DNA of 64,000 nt, taken from positions 1 through 64,000 of IMG/VR virus record IMGVR_UViG_3300044614_002230, one strand, 5' to 3'. Made by a program: the position numbers and the translations under genes. A model generated the notes under the pieces. That model had not been told where the DNA came from. It saw only the letters and a list, made by a program, of their open reading frames with translations, and searched no databases. Of the stretch, positions 30,446 to 57,357 are shown piece after piece. The stretch's first letter is position 1, and the number at the start of each line of letters is the position of its first letter. The stretch comes from a virus.

Positions 30446-30453
30446 TTTTACCC
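30446..30453 (-). promoter_or_regulatory. GGGTAAAA box, candidate late promoter (baseplate operon)
   Basis: Overlaps the tyrosinase stop codon by one base and lies 30 nt before ATG 30415. It would restart late transcription after the insulated tyrosinase gene. Confidence 0.5.
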
Positions 30454-31883
30454 TACTTGTAGTATTTAACGGTTATCTTTTGAATACTGACAGGAGGAAC
30501 CTCCCCAACAACTTTATCGTTTTCAACACCGGTTGTAGGTGTGAATACCAGCTCAAAGCTGTTTTCAGCAAAGCGACTTAAAGGAATCTCAAGAGACACC
30601 GGTTTAGCATTTCCATGGTGATGGTGGCCCTCATGTCCGGAGTCTGGAGTGTTGCCTTCTTTACCGAAGAAATTCAAAAAACCAATAGAAATTCCATTTC
30701 CTTTATCTCCTATAGCTCTGTAACTTACAATGTAAGAAACGCTCGTGTATCCAGAAACAATTGCATTCTCTATTTGAATAATTCCACCTGTATTTCTAAG
30801 ACCTTTAGGTCCAAGAAAAGAAACACTCACTTGTTTTGAAGTTAATGTAACAGGTTTAGAGGTTTGAACTGAAATGGTGTTTTTGTTTTTATCTGCGCTC
30901 TCTGCGGCTAATAGCTTGGGTTCAAAGGGAGAACGTTGACAATCTTCGTAGGATTGGTATTTAACTTTGATAACATTCTGTACCAGATTTTGCATCTGAG
31001 GGATTGTTAATGAAATTATTGACCCGTCTTCGTCTGTGAACTGGTAGGTTCTACCGTCATCTTCGAAAGTAGGTAACACACCACCTCGGTTTGTCCAACA
31101 TTCCCACACGCGGTCTAAGTTGGCGTGATGTAACCAAAAAATTGGGTCCTGAGCAGCCCAGGAAATAGATCCCATCAAAAGACCGTTTTCTTTGCCGAGG
31201 GCGTCGTGTACAACGTTGTGTGGCACGTGTTCTAGGGCCGATTGGAAATCCTCGTATAATGAATTGTCTAATGCTGAAAGAGAGACAATGTCTTCATCTA
31301 ATGCATGACCCCGGTTAATACTTGCTCTTCGGGGGGCATGGAGCGGGTTAATTGACGAATCTTTAGTTAAACGAGTACGAAAAGCTTGAGGGATCTCACG
31401 AGCTTTTGCTGTGCCCGCAGTGTAATTCCAGTAAGGTAGGCTCCAGTTCGGCTGTCCGGACACTTTGCGAGCAACTTTCTCGAAATAATGAAGATACACT
31501 CGATGCCAAAGTAAGAAAAGCTTATCTGGGTGATATTGATGGCACTGGTTCCAAGCATTCTTAACTTTTACTGTTTCATTGGGCACAAGCGTATAAGGCA
31601 TCATTTCTTTCTTATCTTTTTTCGATACATCTTGCATATTTTTCACATCATCCGTGGTGTAGTAATGATGTATTCCGGAGAACCAACGCCAACTACGAGG
31701 GTCTGTCTCAGGCAAAGCCTTCATTGAGCTAACAACTCTTCGGTATTCGTTAATTTCTTGCTCTGTCAGAGAGTTAAAATCTTTTCTAAATGCTGTATTT
31801 TCTCCGTTTGCGAGCGCAGGAATACTAACACTTACGGATGTTAATAATGCAACGATGATTTGAATAAAAATTTTGCGAGCCAT
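30453..31883 (-). CDS. Secreted tyrosinase / polyphenol oxidase (type 3 copper enzyme)
   Basis: 476 residues with a Sec signal peptide (residues 1-26, hydrophobic core 'IFIQIIVALLTSVSVS', cleavage after ALA). A complete type 3 copper site is visible: CuA His72, His118 and His127 (H-x8-H, with C114 nearby), CuB His222 and His226 (H-x3-H) and the DPIFWLHHANLDRVW block at 246-260. The C-terminal domain (about 335-476) resembles the shielding domain of plant/cyanobacterial polyphenol oxidases and carries a His stretch, GHEGHHHHG. Such enzymes hydroxylate monophenols and oxidise catechols to quinones outside the cytoplasm. It sits between tube and baseplate genes but has its own terminator and promoter. 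A phage copy is unusual; acquisition from a host is likely but inferred. Confidence 0.88.
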   Translation of the reverse strand: MARKIFIQIIVALLTSVSVSIPALANGENTAFRKDFNSLTEQEINEYRRVVSSMKALPETDPRSWRWFSGIHHYYTTDDVKNMQDVSKKDKKEMMPYTLVPNETVKVKNAWNQCHQYHPDKLFLLWHRVYLHYFEKVARKVSGQPNWSLPYWNYTAGTAKAREIPQAFRTRLTKDSSINPLHAPRRASINRGHALDEDIVSLSALDNSLYEDFQSALEHVPHNVVHDALGKENGLLMGSISWAAQDPIFWLHHANLDRVWECWTNRGGVLPTFEDDGRTYQFTDEDGSIISLTIPQMQNLVQNVIKVKYQSYEDCQRSPFEPKLLAAESADKNKNTISVQTSKPVTLTSKQVSVSFLGPKGLRNTGGIIQIENAIVSGYTSVSYIVSYRAIGDKGNGISIGFLNFFGKEGNTPDSGHEGHHHHGNAKPVSLEIPLSRFAENSFELVFTPTTGVENDKVVGEVPPVSIQKITVKYYK

Positions 31884-52477: not shown

Positions 52478-52969
52478 TTATTCGATTGTTTCTACTTTAT
52501 GTGGGTACTTTTTGCACAAGTTTTCGATACGGGTTCTCATCCCTTTCATCCAACTTTCGTTTTGAGTGTTGTTCCTTGCTGCTCGCCTACGCTCCAGCTC
52601 TTCTTCACTGACTTGCAAACAAATCAAGTTCATGCCAATGTTTTCTTGAAACATAGCATCCATGTTAGGACCATTGCTCAAACGTTCCCCTTCACCGTAA
52701 ATTATCCAGTCCGGAAATTCTTCCGTGGCTCCGAGTAACCATTCACGAAACTTGGGTCCCACACCTTTACTCCAGGTGTCGGTCCCTGCAAACGTGCCTT
52801 CATCATAACGTCCAAGGACGATTGTCTTCTGTTTAAGGAATTTATGGTAAGTTACCAACCCTTCTTTAATGAATTCATCTGTTTCGTTCTCTCGAAGGTT
52901 ATTTAAAATACCGCGCATCAACGTGGTTTTACCGGTTCCAGGTTGACCAATGTAATAAAAGATTTTCAT
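52478..52969 (-). CDS. P-loop kinase, probable 5-hydroxymethyl-dU DNA kinase type
   Basis: 163 residues. Walker A GQPGTGKTT at 8-16 begins the protein. 'GRYDEGTFAGTDTWSKGVGP', 'IYGEGERLSNGPNM', and 'LQVSEEELERRRAARN' correspond to the lid and base-binding parts of small nucleotide-type kinases. The neighbour (ATGA overlap) resembles the alpha-glutamyl/putrescinyl thymine pyrophosphorylase family, with which this kinase class is linked in phages; the known role is phosphorylating 5-hydroxymethyl-pyrimidine in DNA ahead of adduct attachment. Kinase fold is clear; substrate is inferred from context. Confidence 0.68.
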   Translation of the reverse strand: MKIFYYIGQPGTGKTTLMRGILNNLRENETDEFIKEGLVTYHKFLKQKTIVLGRYDEGTFAGTDTWSKGVGPKFREWLLGATEEFPDWIIYGEGERLSNGPNMDAMFQENIGMNLICLQVSEEELERRRAARNNTQNESWMKGMRTRIENLCKKYPHKVETIE

Positions 52970-53907
52970 TGTTTAGGGTTGTAATGGTAATGCAGGGTGC
53001 CGTGGTTTAAAAACAATTCCATTTTAGCTTTATCTTCACGGGCGTAACGTGGAGCCAATACATCGCCAACAACTTCTCCACGAGCTTGCCAAATTACGTT
53101 CCAATCGATCCCGTGCCAGTTATCATTTTCAGCTTTCATAACTTCTTCTGATTGCCGGTCAAGGTAATAGCCAACGTAACGGCCTCGACTGGTTCTCCAG
53201 AGCTTTTTGTAAGCACAGAGTGCGGTTTCCATTGAGAAGTTGTCGAATTGGGAAGCAAGCAATGGCCAACGCTTGCGAGCTTCCAGCAAAAGTTCAGCAC
53301 CAGCTATTTCTAAGTAAGCGTACTCTTTGCTGGTCAATTTTTGGTTGACCCATTCGTCTTTCCCGAGCGCATAACACAACCCGTTTCTGTGAGACTTGGA
53401 TCCTGAGTAGTCACTTAGTAGTAATGTTGGGCAATCAATATTGATGCCACACGTGTGTTTTAATGTTTGTAAGTAAAAAAATGCGGTGTAACGTCCGAAC
53501 TTATACCATTCTCCTTTTATAATTGCCCAGAGTCGTTCAAAGTTAACTTCCGGCTCCTCCGTACAAATTCGGTCAAACACAGCTTTTTGTGAAGACCCGT
53601 GAACCCAATCACAATACGATTGGTACATGGCTGGCAGGTGCCCTTTTGACCACTTCGTGTCAGTTTGATAGCGCAATCGTGTATAATTCTCGTTGTTCCA
53701 TTGGGTAAATCTATCTACACTCGCCAACTCCTCATCGGGGAATTCGTTCTTATAAACGAATGCGGTGGGTAAATTGTATGTGTGATACAACCATGCAAAC
53801 CACAAACGTTCTTCCACCGAGTATTCATACCGGTCGTTCAGGTATTGGATCAACCAGAGTGCAGGATCGCAATCCCCGGAAGCCACGCTTGCTGCGTAAA
53901 ATTGCAA
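52966..53907 (-). CDS. Alpha-glutamyl/putrescinyl-thymine pyrophosphorylase-like (clade 2) protein
   Basis: About 313 residues if translation begins at TTG 53907 behind GAGGG; an ATG frame opens at 54039 but its first 30 codons lie antisense to the phosphatase gene and look unconserved. Residues (from the TTG) around 'DPALWLIQYLNDRYEYSVEE', 'RLWFAWLYHTYNLPTAF', 'NEFPDEELASVDRFTQWNNE', 'YKFGRYTAFFYLQTLKHTCG' and 'SKSHRNGLCYALGKDEW' match the pattern I know for helical aGPT-Pplase2-type proteins of phage base-hypermodification loci. That family attaches amino-acid or polyamine groups to activated hydroxymethyl-uracil in DNA. Recognition by eye; substrate unknown. Confidence 0.65.
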   Translation of the reverse strand: MQFYAASVASGDCDPALWLIQYLNDRYEYSVEERLWFAWLYHTYNLPTAFVYKNEFPDEELASVDRFTQWNNENYTRLRYQTDTKWSKGHLPAMYQSYCDWVHGSSQKAVFDRICTEEPEVNFERLWAIIKGEWYKFGRYTAFFYLQTLKHTCGINIDCPTLLLSDYSGSKSHRNGLCYALGKDEWVNQKLTSKEYAYLEIAGAELLLEARKRWPLLASQFDNFSMETALCAYKKLWRTSRGRYVGYYLDRQSEEVMKAENDNWHGIDWNVIWQARGEVVGDVLAPRYAREDKAKMELFLNHGTLHYHYNPKQ

Positions 53908-53943
53908 AAAACCCTCAGATCTTTGACTTAATTCACGGTAATC

Positions 53944-54354
53944 ATGACCAACGTTCTTTTTGTTTGTACTGGCAACATTAACCGCAGCGCCGCCGCACAC
54001 ATTATCTTGGAGTCTCATAGTAGCAGTTATAAAGTTCAATCATGTGGCACCGGGAAAGTCGCTCCGTTAGGTAAAAAGGTCCCCAGCAAAATGCGTATGG
54101 CCCTGGAAGAATTGGGATACAATCCCAACAATCACCGCTCTCAAGGTGTCTCCGAAGAATTGCTTGCCTGGGCTGATAAAATCGTGATTATGGGCAACGC
54201 CCACGAGAAATTTATCACAGAGCATTACCCTCAGTACCTTACTAAAATAACCAATTGGAACGTTAAAGATCCTCACTTTGCTACTGGGAATGAGCTGCAT
54301 CGTAAGGTGGCCAAAGAAATTGAAGTCAAAGTTAATCAGTTATTTGTTGAATGA
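53944..54354 (+). CDS. Low-molecular-weight protein tyrosine phosphatase-like
   Basis: The only plus-strand gene. 136 residues with the P-loop V-C8-TGNINR14-S (C-x5-R-S) at the N-terminus and the general-acid loop 'VKDPHFATGN' with Asp109 in the DP motif. LMW-PTPs cleave phosphotyrosine; relatives include arsenate reductases and wall-polysaccharide phosphatases. It is wedged in the modification island: its 3' end overlaps the amidoligase stop by 23 nt (convergent), and its start is 36 nt from the proposed aGPT start (divergent). Opposite orientation suggests recent insertion or independent control. Its target may be a protein, or a phosphorylated intermediate; unknown. Confidence 0.85.
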   Translation: MTNVLFVCTGNINRSAAAHIILESHSSSYKVQSCGTGKVAPLGKKVPSKMRMALEELGYNPNNHRSQGVSEELLAWADKIVIMGNAHEKFITEHYPQYLTKITNWNVKDPHFATGNELHRKVAKEIEVKVNQLFVE

Positions 54355-55270
54355 CCTTCACAGTTTCCTCGGCAGTGCAGTTATCGATATCTAAATGTTT
54401 ACGCAGATCGTTGATACGGGTTTCGGCAACTTTCCGAGAATTTTTATCAAAATTAGTGTACTGATACCCGCACTCCATTGCAAAATCAAACGGGGCAAAC
54501 TCAGGGAAATCATAAGAGTATGCCGAAAGCAATTCTGAAACAAGGGCATCATTCAAAGCCCCCTCGATAAACTTCGCTACCCACACAAAACAGGAGGCTA
54601 ACTTTTTAACATCAAGAGTGTTCGTAAAATGGCGAAATTCAACGGTGTCCGTTTCTTGCAACTGTAACAAGTTGATGCCAGCTCTTGTTGTTAGTCCATA
54701 TGCTCGTTTGTTGTCAGTCTGCAATTTTGAGTGAGCATCAAAGAACTCGCGCACCGTTGTTGCTTGCATCGCCTCAGCAACTCTCGCAGCAGGCACCTTA
54801 TATTGGTGAGAAACTTTACGTCGCTTGTAGCGTTTGAGAGCACCCTTATAGGCTTCTTCGCTGAAGTAATCTTCCCTCAATGGTACCGGAATTGGCTCAA
54901 TTGCTGCATAAATTTGACCTTGATTCGCATCAATATACGCAAGCAATTTCTTGAGAGATTTTAAATCCTCCGACAACCCTGGTACACAAATATGTAAATG
55001 CAAGTTTGTTCGGTGGTTGATAGCAGCTTCCGGATGTCGGGCAATCAACAACTCAAACATTTCAAGTTGTTCAGCAAAGCTATCGGTAGGCGCAGAGTTA
55101 ATCTCTCCTCCGCGTTGGTACGCTCGCCCTTTAGGGTCATTTGCGATCCCGGTTGAACTTACGATTGAGTAATCTTTTTCGTTCCAAGTTAGCCCTTGAG
55201 GTAAATCACTCCTCCAAATATCACCAAACTCGTATTCTGCCCCGAACGTTACGTTCTTGAGGTCAATCAT
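54332..55270 (-). CDS. Amidoligase (COOH-NH2 ligase family)
   Basis: 312 residues. 'TFGAEYEFGDIWR' at 8-20, 'GGEINSAPTDSFAEQLEMFE' near 54-73, 'NHRTNLHLHICV' near 85-96, and 'DTVEFRHFTNTLDVKKLASC' near 212-232 form the signature of the amidoligase family (glutamine-synthetase-like fold: G-x-E-x-E-F, E-I/V-S-x-P, G-x-H-x-H, E-F-R). Such ligases form amide bonds using ATP. It starts in an ATGA overlap with the class II glutaminase, so ammonia or an amidated product is probably passed between them. In a hypermodification island it may build the adduct. Confidence 0.8.
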   Translation of the reverse strand: MIDLKNVTFGAEYEFGDIWRSDLPQGLTWNEKDYSIVSSTGIANDPKGRAYQRGGEINSAPTDSFAEQLEMFELLIARHPEAAINHRTNLHLHICVPGLSEDLKSLKKLLAYIDANQGQIYAAIEPIPVPLREDYFSEEAYKGALKRYKRRKVSHQYKVPAARVAEAMQATTVREFFDAHSKLQTDNKRAYGLTTRAGINLLQLQETDTVEFRHFTNTLDVKKLASCFVWVAKFIEGALNDALVSELLSAYSYDFPEFAPFDFAMECGYQYTNFDKNSRKVAETRINDLRKHLDIDNCTAEETVKVIQQITD

Positions 55271-55926
55271 GGAATCAGTTCCTCAACGTTTGTTATTTTA
55301 GTGCCACCTTTGGGAGTGTAAATCCACCCCGGTTCGCATCGCCGTGGTCGTTTCAATCCTGCACGCAGAGCAATGTCTGATGTTGAGCAGATAAATACAC
55401 CGTTGGGTACACGGTTGAAGTACAAAGGGCGTTTCCCGTTGCGATAAAACCGCAACCCATCGGAGCCCAACTCGGCAACTGCCATACTTGCTTCAGGGAA
55501 CTCTTTCAGCGGTTCTTTCCCCGCATGTCTTGCTTGGTATAGTAACTCGGAATCGTTACTTGTTGCTAGTTCGTAACCGTGCTCGCCCCAATAAACAGGT
55601 GGCCTTTGATCGACAACACCGTTGTGGGCAAGCGCCAAGTCTTCAAAAATATGCAAAGGTTGATTGAATTTAAGGTCGCTCGTCGAATACCTGCAATGGC
55701 CAATCAATTGCAAAGTGTAATCACCAGGCTGCACCTCTGCGAAATGACTTTGCACGAAAGTTTCCGCAGGGACAGGCGCAACTTGAGTGAAGATTCGCTT
55801 ATTGCGAACCAGAGAGTAACCACTTGCGTGTTTTCCTCTAATCTGGGACTCGACAAACAATCGTTTCAGGGTCTGAATTTGTTCTTCAGAAGGCGAGTCA
55901 AGGTAACAACCAACTATAGCACACAT
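55267..55926 (-). CDS. Class II glutamine amidotransferase
   Basis: 219 residues with the N-terminal nucleophile Cys2 (MCAIVG), 'RGKHASGYSLV', 'IGHCRYSTSDLKFNQPLH', 'LALAHNGVVD' and 'SNDSELLYQ', the sequence of landmarks of GATase II glutaminase domains (as in PurF, GlmS, AsnB). It lacks any synthetase or isomerase domain, so it should supply ammonia to a partner, probably the overlapping amidoligase downstream. It follows the TET/JBP gene directly, with no gap. Confidence 0.88.
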   Translation of the reverse strand: MCAIVGCYLDSPSEEQIQTLKRLFVESQIRGKHASGYSLVRNKRIFTQVAPVPAETFVQSHFAEVQPGDYTLQLIGHCRYSTSDLKFNQPLHIFEDLALAHNGVVDQRPPVYWGEHGYELATSNDSELLYQARHAGKEPLKEFPEASMAVAELGSDGLRFYRNGKRPLYFNRVPNGVFICSTSDIALRAGLKRPRRCEPGWIYTPKGGTKITNVEELIP

Positions 55927-57357
55927 TCATTTCTCCGTATACCAGTAATTAGTGCGGGAAGCGTTAGGGCAATGTTTTGTTCTATACTCGTCCCACTCGT
56001 CGCTGACCCACATAGCAGGAAACACTCCACTGAATTTGCCTCCATCGTTTTTCTGATAGCGGTCTGCGTAGTTGGCTTGAGAGTATGCAATGAACTGTTT
56101 ACGGCAACATTCTGACCTGTAATCATCTAGTTTAGCCATGCCATCCCGGGCGTAATAAACTTGAATGATACTTTCGGCGTCCCCGGTTTTGTCTATCATT
56201 TCAGTTTGCCCGTGAACGCGATTGCAGTTGTCACCAACAAAGAAATCTCCGTGGCGAATGTCAAACGCTAAGCCAAACTCAGCCATTACAAAGTATTGTC
56301 CGTCGTATTTCTCGCCAGGGTATGCTTCATTAGTAATGTTTGTAAGAACTGCTACTCCTCTAGGGTTATTTTTACCATCTAGGTGCCAGAAGGTAGAGAA
56401 GTTATAGTTGATTGTAATTGTGGAGAAAGTTTTAGTACCTAGTAGCGTGTATAGATCTTCTTGGCAAGGCTCCATAAGATCATGGATATAATTCCACTCT
56501 TCTGGCATTGTGTCTCGGTACATATCCGAGACTTGCTGATACAAAGATTTATGAGCCTCAAAATCTTTTCGCCTTTTTTCCGTAGTGGCTGACAAGCGAC
56601 CGAAAGGATTTCGGGCAGACCTGTCCATAAAACCGAGGATATTGCTATATACTTTATTCGCTCGAGTCTGAATGCTGACAAAGTTCTTGTAAGAATCTTT
56701 AGCGAACTGAACTTGATCTTCTTCTTTAGCCCAATCAATCAACCAATTATCAAACCACTCCTGACGCAGTTTATCACGTTCAGCCAAGGCGGCATCTTTC
56801 TCTGCTTGAGGTGTGGCTTTCTTGCGAAGAAGAGACTCCAACGCCAGGATCTTCTCTCCATCTACGTAAGGGGAGTTCAGCAGTTTCTTGACATACAAGG
56901 AGAACCGCGAAGCTCCGGTCTGGCTAGCGACAATCTCTTTCGCTTCCTCAATTGTTTTGACTTTACCTTTCGTGGCAGAGCGAAAGAATGCTACTTGGCC
57001 GTTGGTAAGTCTGGCTGAAGTATCGGTAACGAGCTCTTTACCTCCTACCAAGCCACGTTGATCGGACAGTAGATCTTTACTGACCCAACGCCAATAGTTG
57101 AAACTGTCGGAATCAGGAGTGATTTTAGTAATCTCTGGCAACGCATTGCGCAGAAACACAATCGCTCGTTTACCTTTTAGATACACAATCGTGTTATCTC
57201 GAATTATACGGTTGCTGTCATAATCGGTTTCATTGGGGCGATCTCCGATCCGTTCTTTATCGAAAGGGATCAGTTCATCTATTTCAATCACTTCACACTC
57301 ATAAGTGCCAGTGCAAGTTTTGAGGGTTTCAGTGTTGGTTTTAACTTTGGCAGTCAT
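55927..57357 (-). CDS. TET/JBP-like 2-oxoglutarate/Fe(II) dioxygenase
   Basis: 476 residues. The double-stranded beta-helix core lies at about 310-405: 'TITINYNFSTFWHLDGKNNP' gives the H325-x-D327 iron ligands, 'YFVMAEFGLAFDIRHGDFFV' is the JBP/TET-type strand pair, and 'NRVHGQT' gives the distal iron ligand His382. The N-terminal 'DQRGLVGG' is like the small motif before the core in JBP-type proteins, and an inserted helical segment fills about 130-300. The family oxidises the methyl group of thymine (JBP) or 5-methylcytosine (TET) in DNA. In this island it would supply the hydroxymethyl pyrimidine used by the kinase and adduct enzymes. Base specificity not readable. Confidence 0.78.
   Translation of the reverse strand: MTAKVKTNTETLKTCTGTYECEVIEIDELIPFDKERIGDRPNETDYDSNRIIRDNTIVYLKGKRAIVFLRNALPEITKITPDSDSFNYWRWVSKDLLSDQRGLVGGKELVTDTSARLTNGQVAFFRSATKGKVKTIEEAKEIVASQTGASRFSLYVKKLLNSPYVDGEKILALESLLRKKATPQAEKDAALAERDKLRQEWFDNWLIDWAKEEDQVQFAKDSYKNFVSIQTRANKVYSNILGFMDRSARNPFGRLSATTEKRRKDFEAHKSLYQQVSDMYRDTMPEEWNYIHDLMEPCQEDLYTLLGTKTFSTITINYNFSTFWHLDGKNNPRGVAVLTNITNEAYPGEKYDGQYFVMAEFGLAFDIRHGDFFVGDNCNRVHGQTEMIDKTGDAESIIQVYYARDGMAKLDDYRSECCRKQFIAYSQANYADRYQKNDGGKFSGVFPAMWVSDEWDEYRTKHCPNASRTNYWYTEK

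Follow-up and report, generated by a model that had tools for sequence, protein, structure and literature searches.

The locus studied here encodes a glutaminase without a synthetase domain, and it raises the question of which enzyme would receive the ammonia. The window, meaning the whole stretch of 64,000 nucleotides that was analyzed, belongs to an IMG/VR virus record of 65.7 kb in which phage head and tail genes were found. An earlier note on this DNA had proposed that the glutaminase feeds the amidoligase encoded beside it, and that the ammonia reaches a carboxylate on a modified base or its donor. A megablast comparison of 24 kb of the window with a phage collection returned no match. 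Amid the virion genes, a tyrosinase-domain protein of 476 aa is encoded (30453-31883, minus strand; PF00264, 1.6e-28), for which tblastn of 50,697 phage records gave no match.

The gene cassette of the window

Pfam analysis of the window revealed the minus-strand gene order TET/JBP, glutaminase, amidoligase, ADDT and P-loop kinase. The first gene encodes a TET/JBP 2OG-Fe(II) dioxygenase (55927-57357; PF12851, 45.6 bits, cut-off 34.9) with a Tet_JBP domain and the HxD iron motif, which was present in 136 of 136 relatives. It is followed by the stand-alone class II glutamine amidotransferase (GAT; 55267-55926; PF13522 GATase_6, 31 bits, cut-off 27), an Amidoligase_2-like amidoligase of the glutamine synthetase (GS) fold (54332-55270), the amino acid:DNA transferase ADDT (52966-54039; PF18724, 72.7 bits) and the P-loop kinase Ploopntkinase3 (52478-52969; PF18751, 43.4 bits, cut-off 27). 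The latter is a predicted 5hmdU DNA kinase; Walker A was found in 153 of 154 relatives, and an HMUDK_HMUD1 kinase occupies its homologous position in locus L061. Together, these genes probably constitute a cassette for thymine hypermodification of the phage's own DNA.

GAT has 219 aa and begins with Met-Cys, and no synthetase domain follows the GAT domain. In an alignment with 21 relatives Cys2, Arg79, Asn102, Gly103 and Asp125 were invariant, thus the N-terminal cysteine nucleophile of class II enzymes and the Arg, Asn-Gly and Asp of the glutamine site are all in place. The earlier description as a stand-alone glutaminase is therefore correct. Its closest curated relatives are the glutaminase domains of PurF, AsnB and GlmS, with PurF being the nearest by sequence. 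The GAT start abuts the TET/JBP stop (TGAATG) and is preceded by GGAG, while its stop overlaps the amidoligase start by 4 nt (ATGA), as the earlier note had stated.

The sequence score of the amidoligase was weak (PF12224 Amidoligase_2, 18.3 bits vs a cut-off of 22), whereas a homologue in L056 scored 23.0 and thus above the cut-off. A PDB sequence search with the amidoligase profile gave nothing credible. An AlphaFold (AF2) model with a pLDDT of 93.7 resembled the folds of glutamine synthetase, gamma-GCS and YbdK (Foldseek E 3e-3, VIA Z 9.7), and E12, E14, H93, R196, E211 and R213 were invariant among relatives. Fold and conserved acidic and basic catalytic residues are those of a GS-like amidoligase, in agreement with the identity first given to this neighbour. 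As single-sequence queries against viral contigs, neither GAT nor the amidoligase found relatives; an alignment was needed to detect any. Relatives of the window amidoligase were found in 3 of 84,980 cellular genomes, two of them with DNA-modification genes.

For the window ADDT, a PDB sequence search found nothing, and the relationship was found by fold search instead. Besides its PF18724 domain, the protein has a predicted fold that matches only the 5-PmdU glycinyltransferase gp46/PUGT (8z2n, probability 1.00, TM 0.52-0.63).

A conserved member of the cassette that the earlier note did not mention is a low molecular weight phosphatase-fold protein (LMWPTP; 53944-54354, plus strand; PF01451, 1.6e-17). 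Its gene lies antisense here and overlaps both the ADDT and the amidoligase genes; it is antisense in L006, L008, L099 and L177 as well. In most relatives it is co-directional and adjoins the amidoligase. Natural fusions with the amidoligase in L093 (7983-9365) and with the kinase in L052 (3211-4260) show that the phosphatase belongs to the cassette. In L006 (3319-6242) and L007, two adjoining TET/JBP genes were observed upstream of GAT.

The constant partner of the glutaminase

Separate scans were anchored on GAT and on ADDT, each covering the best 80 relatives only. Loci with 3.5 kb of downstream sequence were clustered at 95%, resulting in 93 non-redundant GAT loci. Among the matches listed, ADDT was present in all 93 of these loci, so the DNA-modification setting proposed earlier was supported. 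The amidoligase was present in 72 of the 93; in 20 a GNAT acyltransferase was found instead, and in one (L189) neither (again among the matches listed). Conversely, all 84 ADDT clusters contained GAT and 61 contained the amidoligase; in the ADDT-anchored scan alone the numbers were 60 and 37 of 62, both counts referring to the matches listed. For 11 of 12 GAT cassettes lacking the amidoligase, no amidoligase was found elsewhere in the record. L189, the locus with neither amidoligase nor GNAT, lies in a 161 kb record and has a minimal cassette of TET, GAT, ADDT and kinase, with GAT and ADDT encoded by overlapping genes. The same overlap, with ADDT and not with the amidoligase, was found in L052, L061, L062 and L093.

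The two loci of the ADDT-anchored scan without GAT, L212 and L217, had been considered as counterexamples. They were dropped, as their contigs begin inside the amidoligase gene. Both carry ORFs of about 500 aa (1.5 kb) between the GNAT and ADDT genes (L212, 1420-2961; L217, 1343-2842), which are possibly homing endonucleases.

A quick tree of ADDT, on which counts are approximate, shows about 24 changes of the acyl module between amidoligase with phosphatase, amidoligase with GNAT, and GNAT, while GAT is constant. Phosphatase and GNAT are mutually exclusive among the amidoligase loci. Thus, the invariant partner of GAT is likely ADDT and not the adjoining amidoligase. The simplest reading of these gene patterns would be a constant amine-installing core of GAT and ADDT, with amidoligase and GNAT as interchangeable acylating ends.

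These data bear directly on the proposal that GAT feeds the amidoligase. In such a scheme, ADDT would add an amino acid via its nitrogen to 5-PPO-methyl-dU, and the amidoligase would convert the free carboxylate to a primary amide. GS-fold enzymes form amides from a carboxylate and ammonia. The scheme is consistent with the 4-nt gene overlap in the window and with the gene order in relatives: for 78 of 144 unique GAT genes, the following gene encodes the amidoligase. There is also a precedent in phage S-B43: the asparagine-synthetase-type ligase CmoY couples a carboxymethyl base of the phage DNA to glycine, and ammonia is the predicted substrate of those CmoY homologues that contain a glutaminase domain (PMC12783734). 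Like the cassette predicted here, the CmoA/CmoX/CmoY system has an amide ligase that uses ATP and modifies a base of phage DNA, in some homologues with a glutaminase domain (PMC12783734). It differs in that it works on cytosine with a C5-MTase-like CmoX and an asparagine-synthetase-type ligase; CmoY is unrelated to the window amidoligase, no Cmo gene was found in the window cassette, and record G000 gave no match to PF00145, the profile expected for a Cmo carboxymethyltransferase. Against feeding of the amidoligase stand the 21 of 93 GAT loci without a cassette amidoligase (20 of these with GNAT, among the matches listed) and the frequent occurrence of the amidoligase family in lyase loci without GAT. 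Furthermore, GAT was in no case apart from ADDT in the 93 loci, and their genes overlap in five loci. We consider this scheme doubtful. Of the original proposal, glutamine-derived ammonia is retained, but the counts for ADDT and the amidoligase and the GAT-free lyase loci speak against the amidoligase as its recipient. A carboxylate on the modified base was not indicated either; characterized enzymes of the lyase class leave an amine.

Two gene sets and a proposed common amine

A scan of viral contigs anchored on the amidoligase alignment yielded at least 80 loci, which fall into two classes. Class A contains TET, GAT, amidoligase, LMWPTP, ADDT and kinase; glycosyltransferases, some of them TET-associated, are frequent additions. 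Class B, of which phage Simon is a member, contains a different ADDT, a flavin enzyme, amidoligase, LMWPTP, a 5hmdU-kinase-like protein, an HMUDK_hel protein and a thymidylate-synthase homologue, and is without GAT. The gene set of the window is not a chance assembly, as it recurs in many virus contigs. Structures have been solved for the families matched by the ADDT and the flavin enzyme of class B, namely the 5-PmdU glycinyltransferase and the flavin-dependent lyase (8z2m, 8z2o; E 1e-51, 1e-71). GAT and the flavin lyase are mutually exclusive (0 of 36 vs 13 of 16 clusters; Fisher 9e-10), and GAT was absent from all 18 class B or related records that were searched whole. One locus (L094) has TET together with the lyase and no GAT. 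Another (L061) has GAT but no TET at the locus, with a thymidylate-synthase homologue in the record. The split between GAT and lyase is therefore not a mere echo of that between TET and thymidylate synthase.

Class B corresponds to the M6/PaMx type of hypermodification; its amidoligase relatives lie within exactly that gene set. The window shares with this type the P-loop DNA kinase and the ADDT-fold transferase, both of which were found, and the predicted common intermediate 5-(pyro)phosphomethyl-dU. In contrast to the M6/PaMx type, it has TET/JBP in place of the thymidylate-synthase-like hydroxymethylase (no PF00303 match in record G000) and GAT in place of the flavin lyase (the window gave no match to the lyase profile). 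Moreover, the window ADDT is of a distant subfamily (about 15% identity), and HMUDK_hel is absent from the window. The nearest named ADDT homologues (26-30%) are those of the ViI type (Ackermannviridae), which likewise occur with a kinase and additionally with a thymidylate-synthase homologue. These ADDTs are distant nevertheless, and no GAT, amidoligase, TET or LMWPTP was found near them in five ViI-type loci inspected.

Based on these observations, GAT is most likely the supplier of nitrogen for the predicted DNA decoration, and we slightly favour the following pathway, which was derived from the gene content. TET/JBP would hydroxylate thymine in DNA to 5hmdU, and the P-loop kinase, judged by its family, would convert this to 5-(pyro)phosphomethyl-dU. 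GAT would then hydrolyze glutamine and hand the ammonia to ADDT, which would displace the pyrophosphate to give 5-aminomethyl-dU in DNA, a chemistry resembling that of PurF. The amidoligase would use ATP to couple the resulting amine to a carboxylic acid, a step that the GNAT acyltransferase would carry out in other loci, and the phosphatase may act with the amidoligase or the kinase. In this pathway, a one-step amination would stand in for the two-step route by glycinyltransferase and flavin lyase. GAT and lyase may exclude each other and still share amidoligase and phosphatase because both routes would yield 5-aminomethyl-dU.

In PurF, a GAT-II domain feeds the ammonia that displaces pyrophosphate from PRPP. 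In the reaction of ADDT-fold enzymes, an amine takes the place of the (pyro)phosphate on a phosphorylated hydroxymethyl base. The likeness of GAT to PurF supports displacement of pyrophosphate by ammonia as an analogy, not as proof. PurF carries its PRTase domain on the same polypeptide, whereas here the functions would be split, the acceptor enzyme has the ADDT fold and the substrate would be DNA. On the other side, the amine known for characterized ADDT relatives is glycine, and for others it is an amino acid or putrescine, not ammonia; GAT and ADDT could also stay together through other pressure. A related displacement follows replication in phage phiW-14, where the pyrophosphate of 5-(hydroxymethyl-O-pyrophosphoryl)uracil in the DNA gives way to an amine (PMC5977210). 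There the amine is putrescine and the product putrescinylthymine, in contrast to the glutamine-derived ammonia proposed here.

The modified base and the meaning of the cassette

Which base is modified was addressed by searching whole records. No C5-cytosine methyltransferase was found in the 28 whole records searched. A search of TET-bearing records for genes of the thymidylate synthase/hydroxymethylase type was negative as well. TET and thymidylate-synthase-type genes were mutually exclusive (0 of 28 TET clusters vs 14 of 24 others), and the TET-less GAT record G011 contains a thymidylate-synthase-type gene. Since both C5-methyltransferase and thymidylate-synthase-type genes are missing from the TET records, which may be fragments, in-place hydroxylation of thymine by TET/JBP is the most economical reading of the gene content. 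Alternatively, TET might oxidize 5-methylcytosine, and kinase, ADDT and GAT would act on 5hmC. Characterized phage TETs act on 5mC, and the TET-associated glycosyltransferase PF20691 is present in some relatives. We regard cytosine as improbable, given the lack of a C5-cytosine methyltransferase in the 28 records; the exclusion of TET and thymidylate synthase and the content of G011 fit thymine/uracil as the shared base, and 5hmdU is the substrate of kinase and ADDT homologues in other systems.

Phage GAT-II proteins adjoining amidoligases are also present in the LUZ24 cluster. In contrast to the window, that cluster encodes a long GAT-containing protein (510 aa) together with RimK and GGCT, and no TET, ADDT or kinase is annotated in the region. 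The earlier note had named the occurrence of the pair in many loci without modification enzymes as an argument against its proposal. Such loci were found for the distant LUZ24-like proteins only, not in the GAT subfamily of the window. That GAT and amidoligase make a small molecule or peptide unrelated to DNA, as proposed for LUZ24-like GAT/amidoligase/RimK clusters, is very improbable: a LUZ24-like GAT-II protein that adjoins amidoligase, RimK and gamma-glutamyl cyclotransferase genes is 28% identical to the window GAT, but the window subfamily always occurs with ADDT and DNA kinase where the flank suffices, Pfam detected no RimK-type ATP-grasp ligase among the cassette genes, and the few cellular amidoligase relatives lie mostly in genomes with DNA-modification genes. 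In Vibrio phage 2.275.O (L002, 7866-12126), a 7-deazaguanine-type cluster includes a stand-alone GAT and an amidoligase of 27% identity.

Taken together, we give an even chance to the complete proposal of a split glutamine-dependent amidotransferase acting on DNA. PurF-like GAT and ADDT would make 5-aminomethyl-dU from 5-pyrophosphomethyl-dU in one step, on thymine hydroxylated by TET/JBP, and thereby provide a common handle for interchangeable acyl modules. Parts of the GAT/amidoligase/TET gene set may well be listed already in Iyer 2013. We know of no assay for glutamine-dependent amination of DNA. Adjacency likely misleads at this locus, as the invariant partner of the glutaminase is not its immediate neighbour. 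If the proposal holds true, an amine handle in DNA could be made by a second biosynthetic route, and a modular amine-acylation chemistry would extend across uncultivated viruses, T4-like ones included.
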